Source of the DNA: Actinospica acidithermotolerans
Lineage (GTDB): Bacteria; Actinomycetota; Actinomycetes; Streptomycetales; Catenulisporaceae
Assembly (NCBI RefSeq): GCF_018139625.1
Contig: NZ_JAGSOH010000039.1
Coordinates: 1-54,750, forward strand
Length of the DNA: 54,750 nt
Reading direction: 5' to 3'
Shown: in pieces, positions 5,830 through 44,100 of the stretch
Position numbering within the stretch: the first letter of the stretch is position 1
Layout: the number at the start of each line of letters is the position of its first letter
Position numbers and translations under genes: made by a program
Notes under the pieces: model-generated
What the model saw: only the letters and a program-made list of their open reading frames with translations
What the model was told of the DNA's origin: nothing
The model's database searches: none

Positions 5830-6696
5830 ATGAACACCTTCGTCACCGAAACCGTCAGCATCCTGACGAACGCCGCCATGCTGTTCGTCGTCGCGGCCGG
5901 GCTCACGCTGGTCTTCGGCGCGCTCCGGCTGATCAACATGGCGCACGGCAGCCTCTTCATGGTCGGCGCGCTGACCGTCGCGTCCCTCGCCTCCGGTCTG
6001 ACCGGGGGCTGGGGATTCGCGGTCGCGCTGATCGCCGCCGTCGGGCTGTGCGCGGCCCTGGGCGCGGGCATCGAGATCAGCATCCTGCGCCGCCTGCACG
6101 ACCGCGAGCCGCTGGCCCAGCTGCTCGCCACGTTCGCCCTCGTCCTCGTCGCCGCCGACCTCGCGCAGCGCGTGTGGGGCACCTCGGACCGGACCGTGGC
6201 CACGCCGGTCGCCGGGAGGTTCAGCGTGGGCGGCGCCGTCGTCCCGGAATACGACCTCATCGTCATCGGCATCGCCGCCGCCGTCGCCCTCGGGCTGTGG
6301 CTGCTGCTCGCCCGCACCGCCACCGGCTGGCGGGTCCGCGCGGCCGTGGAGGACCCGGAGACCCTGTCCGTCGGCGGCACGAACCTCGCCCTCCTGCGCA
6401 CCAGCGTCTTCGCGCTCGGCGCGGGGCTGGCCGGGCTCGCCGGAGCCGCGATCGCACCGCTCGAATCCGTCGGCCCGGGCCTCGACACGCAGATCATCGT
6501 CGCGGCGTTCATCGTCACCGTGGTCGGCGGCCTCGGCTCGGTCGTCGGCGCGGCGCTCGGCGCGGTGGTCATCGCCACCGTCGAGGGCCTGGGCACGCTC
6601 TGGGTCCCCAGCTACGCCTCCAGCGCCGGCTACCTCGTGATGATCCTCGTGCTGGCCGTGCGCCCCTGGGGCCTGTTCGGCACCCCGGACAGATAG
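5830..6696 (+). CDS. ABC transporter permease, LivH type
   Basis: This 288-aa protein has about eight hydrophobic segments. It carries LivH features: AGLTLVFGALRLINMAHGSLFMVGA near the N-terminus and the conserved GAGLAGLAGA..P block before the last helices. It pairs with the LivM-type permease to make the transmembrane channel. The start ATG at 5830 is only 11 nt after the substrate-binding-protein stop, so the two are co-transcribed. I saw no truncation or missing segment. Confidence 0.9.
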   Translation: MNTFVTETVSILTNAAMLFVVAAGLTLVFGALRLINMAHGSLFMVGALTVASLASGLTGGWGFAVALIAAVGLCAALGAGIEISILRRLHDREPLAQLLATFALVLVAADLAQRVWGTSDRTVATPVAGRFSVGGAVVPEYDLIVIGIAAAVALGLWLLLARTATGWRVRAAVEDPETLSVGGTNLALLRTSVFALGAGLAGLAGAAIAPLESVGPGLDTQIIVAAFIVTVVGGLGSVVGAALGAVVIATVEGLGTLWVPSYASSAGYLVMILVLAVRPWGLFGTPDR

Positions 6697-10317: not shown

Positions 10318-11178
10318 GTGAAGTCGGGCACGAGGTGGTCTACGGCGCTCGCGCTGGTCGCGGCGGCGTGGGTGACGGTCGGCGGCGTGGCGCACGCGGA
10401 CACCGTCTACGGGGTGACGGTGCCGGACGCGGCGTTCACCGCCGGTACGGGTACCCAGACGCTCGACATCACGATCGCGCCGAACTCCCGCGTCGTGGGC
10501 AGCGCCGATCAGGTGGGCGTGTCCTCCGTCGCGGGTCTCGTCACCGGCATCTCCGCATCCGGCGCCGGCGGAACGTGCTCCGGCTCGCCCGGCGCGTGGA
10601 TCTGCCAGCCGAGCGGCACGACGTGGCGAGCCGGGGACATCCGGGTGTACGTGAGCACGGCGACGGCGACGTGTGGCAACTCCATGGAGGTTTGCGGTCG
10701 CGAGCCGCTCACCGCCGACGTCGACGGCGCGGGACTGCCGATCGAGATCACCGGCAGCATCTTCATCGGCGCCGCTCCGACGCCGTCGCCGTCTCCGACC
10801 ACGCCGGCGGCTCAACCGTCGAAGGCCGCGCCCTCGTCCGCGCCGACCACGCCGGCTTCGACGCGGGCGGCCGCGGAGCAGGCCGCGACCGTGGCCGCAT
10901 CTCAGGTTCGCGCCCCAGCCTCCACGAGCCCGTCGCCGCCCAGCCCCCCGGCGACGTCCGCGTCGCCGCCGCGCTCCGCGTCGCCCACCACTGAGGCCTC
11001 GTCCGCGTCGAGGACCAAGGCCGCGGTCGCGGCCGCCTCCAGCCCGCCGTCGGGCGTCGTCGACCTGGCCGACACGAGTTCGTCCTCGACGATGGCCGTC
11101 GTCGGACTGGCGATCGCGTTCCTACTCGTCGGCGCGACCTCCTCCGCATGGATTCGCCGAAACCGGCGCGAGCGCTAG
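10318..11178 (+). CDS. Secreted protein with Pro/Ser/Ala stalk and C-terminal membrane anchor
   Basis: The protein is 286 aa from GTG 10318 (GGGGAGGGAG upstream). It has a signal peptide with likely AHA-DT cleavage at ~27, then an extracellular domain of ~115 residues with four cysteines (GTCSGSPGAWICQ; TCGNSMEVC). A long Pro/Ser/Ala/Thr stalk (~150-245) leads to a hydrophobic helix and the basic tail RRNRRER. Before the helix is LADTS, one residue away from the LAXTG motif used by actinobacterial class E sortases. With Ser for Gly, sorting is doubtful and simple membrane anchoring is likelier. The TAG stop lies within the CTAG flank of the foldback element that follows. Function unknown. Confidence 0.75.
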   Translation: MKSGTRWSTALALVAAAWVTVGGVAHADTVYGVTVPDAAFTAGTGTQTLDITIAPNSRVVGSADQVGVSSVAGLVTGISASGAGGTCSGSPGAWICQPSGTTWRAGDIRVYVSTATATCGNSMEVCGREPLTADVDGAGLPIEITGSIFIGAAPTPSPSPTTPAAQPSKAAPSSAPTTPASTRAAAEQAATVAASQVRAPASTSPSPPSPPATSASPPRSASPTTEASSASRTKAAVAAASSPPSGVVDLADTSSSSTMAVVGLAIAFLLVGATSSAWIRRNRRER

Positions 11179-11342
11179 GGCGTGTTTTGAAACTAGCGTC
11201 GGATCAGGCCGCGGCGTCTGACGCGTGCGATCGCAAGGCGCCGGGTCGTCCGCATACTGGGCGTACGTGGGCGATCCGGCAACGCGGCGAGCGTGCGTGG
11301 CAGGCGTCGCGGACCCGGCGATAGTTGCAAAACACGCCCTAG
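11175..11342. mobile_element. MITE-like foldback element, copy 1 (160 bp + CTAG flanks)
   Basis: The 160-bp core (11179-11338) begins GGCGTGTTTTGAAACTA. It ends with the inverse of GGCGTGTTTTGCAACTA, a 16/17 terminal inverted repeat. It is flanked on both sides by CTAG (11175-11178, 11339-11342), which looks like a target duplication. The two halves are also imperfectly complementary inward, so the whole unit can fold into one long hairpin. A second copy at 42731-42898 has the same length and differs at three positions. There is no transposase; it must have been moved in trans. The CTAG-flanked, GC-rich terminal design resembles IS5-family elements. The left CTAG carries the stop codon of the upstream gene. 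Confidence 0.85.
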
Positions 11343-41862: not shown

Positions 41863-42696
41863 GTGACCCGCATCGTCTGCCGCCAGCTCGCCCCGACCCT
41901 CGGCGATCTTCCGGGCAACCACCGGCAGATCCTGCGGGTGATCGAGGAGGAGACGTCCGCCGGCACGGACGTCCTCGTGCTGCCCGAGCTGGTCACGAGC
42001 GGCTACGTCTTCGAGACCGTCGACGAGGTGGACGCCTGCGCGATCACACCGCACGATCCGCTGGTGTCCGAATGGGCCGCCGCGATCAGGGGCGGTTCCG
42101 TCGTGATCCTCGGGTTCGCCGAACGCGGCGAGGACGGCCTGTTCTACAACGGCGCCATGCTGCTCGACGCGGGCGGCGTCCTCGCGACGTACCGCAAGGC
42201 GCACCTGTGGGACGACGAGAAGCGGTTCTTCACCCCGGGCTCGCAGCCGCCGCCGGTCGTCGAGACCCGCTTCGGCCGGATCGGCTTCATGGTCTGCTAC
42301 GACTTCGAGTTCCCCGAGTTCCCCCGCCGCTGCGCGCTCGAAGGCGCCGAGCTGATCGCCGTGCCGACGAACTGGCCGCTGGTGCGCCGCCCGGAGGGCG
42401 AGCGGCCGCCCGAGTGGCATCTCGCGCAGGCCGCGGCGCGGGTCAACCGGGTCGTCATCGCGTGCTGCGACCGGACCGGGACCGAGCGCGGCCAGCAGTG
42501 GACCGAGGGCACGGCGATCTTCGATCAGTACGGCTGGCTCGCGTCGGCCGCGTCGTCGTCGGCGGGCGCCCTTGCCGACGCCGAGGGCGCTGAGCACCGC
42601 GCCGAATACGAGGCGGACCTCGCCGCGACCCGGGACAAGAGCTTCAACCCGAACAACGACCTGTTCGGCGACCGGCGCCCGGAGCTCTACCTGTGA
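41863..42696 (+). CDS. Nitrilase-superfamily carbon-nitrogen hydrolase
   Basis: The protein is 277 aa. The Glu-Lys-Cys triad is Glu42 in LPELVTSGYVF, Lys112 in YRKAHLWDDEK and Cys145 in MVCYDFEFPE. It hydrolyses an amide such as a carbamoyl or omega-amide; the substrate is not identifiable. GTG 41863 is 7 nt after GGAGG. A start at 41809 would add a non-conserved 18 residues. It is convergent with the cysteine-desulfurase-like gene, with MITE copy 2 between them. Confidence 0.9.
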   Translation: MTRIVCRQLAPTLGDLPGNHRQILRVIEEETSAGTDVLVLPELVTSGYVFETVDEVDACAITPHDPLVSEWAAAIRGGSVVILGFAERGEDGLFYNGAMLLDAGGVLATYRKAHLWDDEKRFFTPGSQPPPVVETRFGRIGFMVCYDFEFPEFPRRCALEGAELIAVPTNWPLVRRPEGERPPEWHLAQAAARVNRVVIACCDRTGTERGQQWTEGTAIFDQYGWLASAASSSAGALADAEGAEHRAEYEADLAATRDKSFNPNNDLFGDRRPELYL

Positions 42697-42730
42697 CCGA
42701 CCCGGGCCTCCTGCCGGCGAGCCCCGCGTC

Positions 42731-42898
42731 CTAGGGCGTGTTTTGAAACTAGCGTCGGATCAGGCCGCGGCGTCTGACGCGTGCGCTCGCAAGGCGCCGG
42801 GTCGTCCGCATACTGGGCGTACGTGGGCGATCCGGCAACGCGGCGAGCGTGCGTGGCAGGCGTCGCGGACCCGGCGATAGTTTCAAAACACGCACTAG
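42731..42898. mobile_element. MITE-like foldback element, copy 2 (160 bp + CTAG flanks)
   Basis: The core 42735-42894 is 160 bp. It begins GGCGTGTTTTGAAACTA and ends with the inverse of TGCGTGTTTTGAAACTA. CTAG lies on both sides (42731-42734 and 42895-42898). Compared with copy 1, three of 160 positions differ. The right CTAG supplies the TAG stop of the minus-strand neighbour. The element fills the gap between two convergent genes and, as a long hairpin, may end transcription from either side. Confidence 0.88.
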
Positions 42899-44100
42899 GA
42901 GCGGACGAACTTCGTCAGCGCGTTCAGCAGCCGCTCGACGTCCTCGGCGTCGTTGTACGGCGCCAGGCCGATGCGCAGGCCGCCGGAGTCGCCGAGCCCG
43001 AGATGACGCGAGGTCTCGATCGCGTAGAACGACCCTGACGGCGCGTGCACCTTGCTCTCCGCCAGGTACCGGTACGCATCGACCGTGCTGCGCCCGGAGA
43101 TCGTGAGCAGCAGCGTCGGGGTACGGCGCTTCGCGCGCGAATAGACGTGCACGGCGTCGAGTTCCGCCAGGCCATCCTCGATCTGGCCACGCAGGCCGTT
43201 CTCGTGCTCCTCGATGGCGGCGTACGTCGACAGGAGCCGCTTCCTGCGCGATCCGGCGCTCGCCGGGCTCATCTCGGCGAGGAAGTCGACGGCCGCGCGC
43301 GCACCCGCGAGCAGTTCATAGGGCAGTGTGCCGAACTCGAACCGCTCGGGGACGGCGTTCGTCGAGGGCAGCAGCTTGTCCGGCCACACGGATTCGAGCA
43401 GCTGGGGCGCCGCGGCGAGCACGCCCACGTGCGGGCCGAGGAACTTGTACGACGAGCACACGTAGAAGTCCGCGCCGATCGCGGCGAGATCGACCATCGC
43501 GTGCGCGCTGTGGTGCACGCCGTCCACGTAGAGCAGCGCGCCCGCCTGGTGGACCAGTTCCGCGATCGGGGCGAGGTCCGGCTGCGTGCCGATCAGGTTC
43601 GACGCCGCGGTGATCGCGACCAGCCGCGTACGCTCCGACAGCGCCGCGTGCACGTCATCCGCCGTCAGCTCGCCGGTCTCGGGGTCGAAATCCACCCAGC
43701 GCACGACCGCGCCCACGCCTTCGGCCGCCTGAATCCACGGACGGACGTTCGCATCATGGTCCAGACGGGTGACGACCACCTCGTCGCCGGGCGTCCACGT
43801 CTTCGCGAGCGCGCGCGAGAAGTCGTACGTGAGCTGCGTGGCGCTGCGGCCGAAGACGATCCCGGCCGGATCGGTGCCGAGCAGGTCGGCCAGCGCGCGA
43901 CGGCTCTCCCCGACGATCGCGTTCGCGTTGCGCTCGCCCGGCGTGCCGTCGCCGCGGTTGGACAGCGGGCTCGCGAGCGCGTTCGCGATGGAGTTGATCA
44001 CCGGGAACGGCGTCTGCGTGCCGCCCGGCCCGTCGAAGTGCGCGACCCCCGAGGCCAGCGCGGGGAATTCGGCACGAAGGACGGCCACGTCGTAGGTCAT
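42895..44100 (-). CDS. Cysteine-desulfurase-like PLP enzyme (aminotransferase class V)
   Basis: The protein is 401 aa. PLP features include FGRSATQLTYDFSRAL, the Asp193/His196 pair in YVDGVHHSAH, and the Schiff-base Lys219 in SSYKFLGPHVG. It resembles the 'cysteine desulfurase family protein' subgroup with substrate unknown, not the SufS/IscS house enzymes (no suf or isc partners nearby). Its TAG stop is part of the right CTAG of MITE copy 2, so the end of the gene is directly at the insertion point. Confidence 0.85.
   Translation of the reverse strand: MTYDVAVLRAEFPALASGVAHFDGPGGTQTPFPVINSIANALASPLSNRGDGTPGERNANAIVGESRRALADLLGTDPAGIVFGRSATQLTYDFSRALAKTWTPGDEVVVTRLDHDANVRPWIQAAEGVGAVVRWVDFDPETGELTADDVHAALSERTRLVAITAASNLIGTQPDLAPIAELVHQAGALLYVDGVHHSAHAMVDLAAIGADFYVCSSYKFLGPHVGVLAAAPQLLESVWPDKLLPSTNAVPERFEFGTLPYELLAGARAAVDFLAEMSPASAGSRRKRLLSTYAAIEEHENGLRGQIEDGLAELDAVHVYSRAKRRTPTLLLTISGRSTVDAYRYLAESKVHAPSGSFYAIETSRHLGLGDSGGLRIGLAPYNDAEDVERLLNALTKFVRS

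Follow-up and report, generated by a model that had tools for sequence, protein, structure and literature searches.

The foldback element that occurs twice in the analysed DNA of Actinospica acidithermotolerans (the window, a whole stretch of 54,750 nucleotides, positions 1 to 54,750 of contig NZ_JAGSOH010000039.1) is probably a mobile hairpin, probably an RNA, which changes its transposon ends and survives where its insertion restores a stop codon. As judged from sequence comparisons, we consider it likely that the element is an IS5-mobilised CTAG MITE, that its bias toward gene 3′ ends is mostly a filter, that its core is maintained in the form of an RNA or single-strand hairpin, and that its ends are exchanged. 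The preliminary description of the window had emphasized a niche at stop codons; more surprising is that a structured core is conserved while the ends around it change.

In the window, copy 2 with its duplications occupies 42731-42898, with CTAG at each outer end. The element itself, 160 bp without the duplications, lies at 42735..42894, and the plus strand is its best-folding strand. The left target-site duplication is located at 42731..42734 (no strand), the left terminal inverted repeat, GGCGTGTTTTGAAACT of subfamily 1, at 42735..42750 on the plus strand, and the right terminal inverted repeat at 42879..42894 on the minus strand. The conserved core at 42762..42871 (plus strand) was scored at 110.3 bits over 110 positions by the covariance model R1, whose alignment contains this copy itself. 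The right CTAG at 42895..42898 contains the minus-strand TAG stop (read 42897 to 42895) of the host gene at 42895..44100, which is encoded on the minus strand and specifies a 401-aa class V aminotransferase/cysteine-desulfurase-like protein. Copy 1 with its duplications spans 11175-11342, the element being at 11179..11338 and its core at 11206..11315, both on the plus strand (R1, 112.6 bits). Its left CTAG at 11175..11178 includes the TAG stop (11176-11178) of the plus-strand host gene at 10318..11178, and its right CTAG lies at 11339..11342 (no strand). The 286-aa protein of this gene had no Pfam or NCBIfam match at E 0.001. No gene was called inside either copy. The coordinates and open reading frames agreed with the preliminary description, according to which both foldbacks are flanked by CTAG and carry a gene's TAG stop in one of the two. 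The rarity of CTAG that it had noted was also borne out, as the window has 19 such sites, whereas dinucleotide shuffles predicted 73. Moreover, the foldback was confirmed as a strong fold (DNA fold z = -9.6).

In the 7.9-Mb draft genome of the same strain, the element was found at about 28 places and in two main subfamilies, the window copies being two of these. Subfamily 1, to which the window copies belong, comprises nine copies with the ends GGCGTGTTTTGAAAC or near; the remaining copies have the ends GCCGTGTCTTCAAAC or decayed forms of them. The near-identical copies of this genome share 99-100% identity. The element was 159-173 bp long in 119 of 122 measured copies (52, 146, and 177 bp in the other three), with inverted ends of about 16 bp. 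CTAG was intact on both sides in 16 of 24 copies of this genome, 22 of 34 in three relatives, and 32 of 64 in order-mates, and was changed at one or both ends in the rest. In the four species, all 58 copies with both flanks were bounded by CTAG or an altered CTAG. Several features expected of a MITE were found, namely a size of 70-300 bp, inverted terminal repeats, absence of coding sequence, and a target-site duplication. Shorter forms were also observed. In the congener G001, a 52-bp mini derivative with element-like ends (L170) lies on a stop too, and L171 is a fragment; in G003 of a sister genus, pieces of 40-70 bp on C66, C77, C78, and C111 match part of the element and are possibly half-elements or other families.

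An autonomous element was identified for subfamily 2 only. This resident IS (L031/L174, contig C368) is 1,025 bp long, has CTAG on both sides and the ends GCCGTGTCTTCAAAG, and encodes a 287-aa transposase; its ends match those of subfamily 2 at 15 of 16 positions, the outermost 14 bp being identical. The transposase was assigned to the IS5-type DDE enzymes by matches to NF033580 transpos_IS5_3 (249.7 bits, cut-off 110), PF13340, and PF01609, and no IS481 model was among its five NCBIfam matches. Since the ends of subfamily 2 and of this IS5-type element match and both have CTAG duplications, the foldback is read as a non-autonomous MITE that would be moved in trans by IS5-type transposases using and duplicating the palindrome CTAG. 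No autonomous parent with subfamily 1 ends was found in this assembly, where L104-L107 lack matching CTAG-type ends; the nearest ends, by eye among those printed, belong to a related IS (L175) from another genus of the family. When ten IS copies were compared with the interior of the element, only short, chance-level matches were obtained past the ends. An origin of the element by internal deletion of the IS with matching ends was not supported, as the interior is not common to these ten copies. This result weakens the claim of origin and leaves the claim of MITE-like movement untouched.

The association with stop codons was determined by rebuilding the empty site of each copy and asking whether its CTAG contained the TAG of a called gene, the genes being called by our own codon-model caller, retrained for the order-mates, and not by a published one. 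In the case of the own genome, 29 listed places were reduced to 24 after dropping L025/L028 (one broken copy), L029 (partial), and L016 and L019 (contig edge), and a 33-bp match at C413 was left out of the count. The background was the 245 CTAG sites in 1.1 Mb that remained once 50 lying close to elements and 21 lying close to region ends had been taken out. The mapping proposed with the preliminary description was carried out in this way and gave a clear excess: 20 of 24 copies were on a TAG stop, compared with 68 of 245 other CTAG sites (Fisher p = 1.2e-7). The excess was robust to the gene-caller threshold (p 6e-8 to 2e-7 at 15, 25, and 40). In the congener G001, 18 of 22 copies were on stops, the 52-bp derivative being included and L041 (edge), L171 (short fragment), and L172 (no match) dropped. 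The corresponding counts were 4 of 10 in the congener G002, where L166-L169 were dropped as decayed or partial and L046, L052, and L054 are not fully independent owing to a common flanking repeat, and 1 of 2 in the sister genus. These three G002 copies share the flank ATGCATGATTTTCATGACGC in either direction and may lie in another repeat. For the four species together, 43, 43, and 41 of 58 copies were on stops at thresholds 15, 25, and 40, respectively.

Similar counts were made in wider samples. Order-mate copies were hand-picked among the R1 matches listed, favouring multi-copy genomes, with G212, G353, and G376 among those omitted. This gave 80 places in 19 genomes, and dropping the 16 without clean CTAG-type ends, several of which look like a TA-duplication type, left 64 copies in 18 genomes. 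On stops, 36 of these 64 were found, against 28 of 117 background sites (p = 1.6e-5), the background being what remained after 98 sites were dropped, 83 of them in the element zone itself. The class-wide set was small, with 19 loci reduced to 15 by excluding 4 without clean ends, and three of the 64 order-mate copies also belong to it. With the own genome's codon model, 3 of the 15 were on stops; 9 were near a gene 3′ end by our own reading, and 3 were within called genes.

The bias was not confined to stop codons. A 3′ zone was defined to include stops and sites no more than 50 bp from a gene 3′ end. All 24 own-genome copies fell inside it, compared with 97 of 245 background sites (p 1e-9). 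So did 56 of the 58 four-species copies, or 54 when the caller was set most strictly, and 43 of 64 in the order-mates, against 38 of 117 background sites (p 7e-6). Within this zone, stops were not significantly preferred, either in the own genome (20/24 vs 68/97, p 0.15) or in the order-mates (36/43 vs 28/38, p 0.29), and these two samples did not support the stop codon as such as the target. Moreover, no clear preference was detected for bases around the site beyond CTAG, the smallest p values being 0.04, uncorrected, among 26 tests. An extended target motif was accordingly not supported, and a transposase that recognizes stop codons is thus not needed. In the preliminary description, a mobile element that lands at stop codons had been suggested. 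The mobile element and a stop excess well over background stood, but the rule is better given as the gene 3′ end or within about 50 bp of it.

The suggestion that duplication of CTAG regenerates the stop was supported by the fate of the two duplications. In the four species, all 40 single-stop copies had TAG in the duplication serving the gene; in 12 of the 40, the other, unused duplication was changed. Among 33 single-stop copies in order-mates, the serving codon was TAG in 26 and TAA in 7, and the free duplication was lost in 3. At three sites, one CTAG had been common to two convergent genes, each of which now has its own CTAG. The idea of stop regeneration is not new, because it has been published for the IS481-type transposon TnRErm46.

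The core was 95-99% equal between three congeners while the ends differed. In congener group consensuses, compared from chosen rows (20 of 41), 82-85 of 86 mid-stem positions were equal, against 17-31 of 34 at the ends and 25-36 of 41-42 at the apex, and the mid-stem agreed with that of the sister genus at 76-79 of 86 positions. A DNA search with the core, in which two candidates per genome were scored, gave matches in 33 of the 394 class genomes, the own genome included; the matches were about 70-79% identical where long, and their ends were of many kinds.

Three alignments were prepared, namely A1 with 41 of 56 distinct copies, A2 with 23, and A3 with 19. In a MAFFT alignment of 23 diverse elements, 58 pairs were predicted, with compensatory changes in 43. 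In the core alignment, 22 of 36 pairs had compensatory changes, 95.3% of the cells were paired, and 90 double-change cells were counted; shuffling gave 26.6, and slid controls did not exceed 23. The core has an internal loop flanked by the nearly invariant letters GCAAGGCG and CAACGC. The two strands also differed. The alifold energy was -97.0 kcal/mol for the forward and -65.9 kcal/mol for the reverse strand, each in its own best structure, and the forward strand folded more stably in 56 of the 57 copies of one set and in all 64 of another, counts that are non-independent through shared ancestry. Twelve core pairs were possible on the forward strand only, and none (A2) or three (A3) on the reverse strand only. 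The 119:6 excess of G-U over A-C in the core is inflated, as the structure was predicted on the forward strand, and the ratio was 5:5 on pairs predicted for both strands; therefore, some dozen pairs carry the strand asymmetry, and these may trace back to a few old changes. The mismatches in the 16-bp ends of up to 121 copies (37 G-U, 13 A-C, and 50 transversions) also lean toward G-U, so that core and ends differ in degree rather than in kind. Upkeep of a palindrome at the DNA level could yield compensatory changes, but not the strand difference that was seen.

With R1 and a cut-off of E <= 1e-3, the core was detected in 102 of the 119 order genomes, and by our own count the best match reached E <= 1e-8 in 81 of them. 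In the phylum sample, it was detected in 18 of 296 genomes, 7 of the 18 being in the order; beyond the order, the weak matches may stem from chance or from other palindromes. R1 was built partly from genomes that were then searched, its E-values are rough, and at most 32 candidates per genome were scored in the order. No Rfam 15 match at gathering level was obtained in the window, and a search of five copy-bearing loci gave two matches at E <= 1, neither of them within the element. A known Rfam family was accordingly rejected, no curated model matching the element at these places. A 6C RNA (RF01066, 57.6 bits) was observed at 2685-2760 of locus L012, with an element copy roughly 1 kb away. Searches of one open-access library gave no publication describing this core.

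Changes at the ends were observed in several forms. In one G002 copy (L056, 1491-1660), the arms form a perfect inverted repeat of 28 bp; none of the other 56 copies exceeds 17 bp. This repeat looks like arm-to-arm copying or template switching, by which a change at one end would be able to spread to the other. In several of L262-L272, L298-L304, L308, L326, and L340, the same core lies between AGGGCTGTCCCG-type ends, and TA, often within C-TA-G, is apparently duplicated. At stops, such copies have TAA on the gene side, the codon of the 7 order-mate copies mentioned above; a TA-duplicating type would turn TAG into TAA. Moreover, in L282 and L310, around 5920-6190, the core is combined with yet other long ends and no CTAG was seen there, which suggests a third carrier type.

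A mechanism can be proposed from these observations. The transposase most likely inserts at any CTAG, and the 3′-end bias would mostly result from a filter, with CTAG scarce in genes and insertion into C-TAG restoring the stop. As CTAG is rare, 28% of the counted sites are stops, and an insertion there restores the stop and spares the DNA upstream of the next gene, copies at these sites would persist. The core would be maintained as an RNA (or single-strand) hairpin, beyond a mere DNA palindrome. The elements would swap ends, keeping the core and taking ends that fit the active transposases, possibly via arm-to-arm copying. A copy at a stop would give the host mRNA a 3′UTR hairpin of about 65 pairs directly after the stop, with possible effects on decay, processing, or termination. 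The orientation of the element relative to the upstream or host gene was 17 same to 22 opposite in the four species, 22 to 11 in the order-mates (p 0.08), and 39 to 33 when pooled, and a setting of element orientation by the host gene was not supported, as neither set was significantly biased. That the strands differ while the orientation to host genes is not significantly biased speaks against a simple role in the host 3′UTR. The element may be a travelling RNA and not plain junk DNA. A fuller reading is offered tentatively and is somewhat more doubtful than probable: one asymmetric hairpin, with structure and internal loop conserved across the order and perhaps wider, would be a travelling module with a function of its core RNA, repackaged between different transposon ends (CTAG- and TA-type) that follow the active transposase, its host genes being spared by stop restoration.

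Other explanations were weighed against this mobile hairpin. The element might be a functionless ordinary MITE, a palindrome amplified by IS5-type transposases whose core likeness stems from recent horizontal movement. The near-identical copies of the own genome and the dependence of the strand asymmetry on few pairs favour this possibility, and CTAG-duplicating MITEs with IS-type parents are known, as described in the consulted part of PMC3189936. However, recent transfer alone would carry core and ends together, whereas the ends differ between species and the core does not; moreover, at about 70-79% identity across the order, the core retains compensatory pairs and a nearly invariant loop region. 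A functionless MITE is therefore regarded as rather unlikely. A less probable alternative is that the hairpin is a transcription terminator or mRNA-end stabilizer selected at gene 3′ ends, a role that its high stability right behind the stop and its 3′-end location would fit. A scan of 42500-43100 at the copy 2 locus for an intrinsic terminator (GC-rich stem and U-run) found none; a classical terminator was rejected at this locus, and the terminator role suggested in the preliminary description was not supported. In the four species, 28 of 43 stop copies lie between tandem genes, where termination would be polar, and the size of the gap was unshifted relative to background. Moreover, the orientation is not significantly biased despite the difference of about 25 kcal/mol in fold energy between the strands.

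Active targeting of gene 3′ ends or stops by the transposase or its complex beyond CTAG, for example through a transcription-linked DNA structure, was judged about as improbable as the terminator. It would explain why the excess persisted against intergenic CTAGs alone (20/24 vs 68/195, p 6e-6 in the own genome), why 8 of 9 close, near-identical subfamily 2 copies with both flanks (L010-L020) are on stops, and why only 1 of 58 copies in the four species lies more than 50 bp beyond a 3′ end. In the order-mates, however, 10 of 64 copies lie beyond that distance, and of the ten autonomous IS copies with clear CTAG-type ends only 4 are on stops, some of the ten being without a called gene on one or both sides. 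The lack of a clear extra sequence preference and of a significant preference for stops within the 3′ zone also argues against active targeting. It is very improbable that the outer ends, CTAG included, belong to the element and that the stop was created by truncation of the host gene. Many copies do have CTAG at both ends, but the protein of the copy 2 host gene (42895-44100), the one window gene used in this comparison, has orthologues in two congeners without the element at that locus that end within about one residue of it, with the stops TAA and TGA. Creation of the stop by the element was rejected on the basis of these orthologue ends and the decay of free CTAGs, the used one being kept, and the three convergent gene pairs that had shared one CTAG also argue against it.

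In the usual view of bacterial MITEs, the ends are fixed and the filler between them drifts. In the present element, it is the filler that is conserved, with signs of a folded RNA, and the ends that change. If the proposed reading is true, the element would allow selection on a mobile RNA to be tested in bacteria, and its copies would form a large natural collection of 3′UTR hairpins. The counts also explain quantitatively why transposons of two or more families find shelter at the rare CTAG sites in stops.

Several known systems resemble this element in part. The mycobacterial MIRU is likewise a small mobile repeat at gene boundaries with little effect on genes, but it inserts at start codons and couples genes via its own ORF, and the part of the report consulted mentions no hairpin-and-CTAG logic (PMC12548453). 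Similar to the present element, TnRErm46/ISRe46 of Rhodococcus and ISLxc2 target CTAG in actinobacteria; in the consulted excerpts, the CTAG duplication of the former regenerates a stop (PMC6794481), and the latter makes an NCTAGN duplication, the stop at its insertion site being that of its own transposase (PMC2516522). Both have IS481 transposases, whereas the resident enzyme with matching ends is of the IS5 type (IS5_3). MITEPsy1 of Pseudomonas syringae is also short, with inverted ends and a 4-bp duplication of CTAG or YTAA, and is thought to derive from an IS (ISPsy2); it is 100 bp long, however, and 2 of its 6 copies interrupt loci, and neither a conserved structured core nor a stop-codon excess is mentioned in the consulted text (PMC3189936). 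As far as the consulted part of PMC3733652 goes, GTAG-class REPs are palindromic repeats whose ends often supply TAG stops to flanking ORFs, but they are 20-40 bp long and linked to REP-associated tyrosine transposases. An assignment to REP/RAYT units (20-40 bp, with a GTAG or CGTC foot) was rejected, as the present element is a unit of about 160 bp with a CTAG duplication and IS5-type ends.
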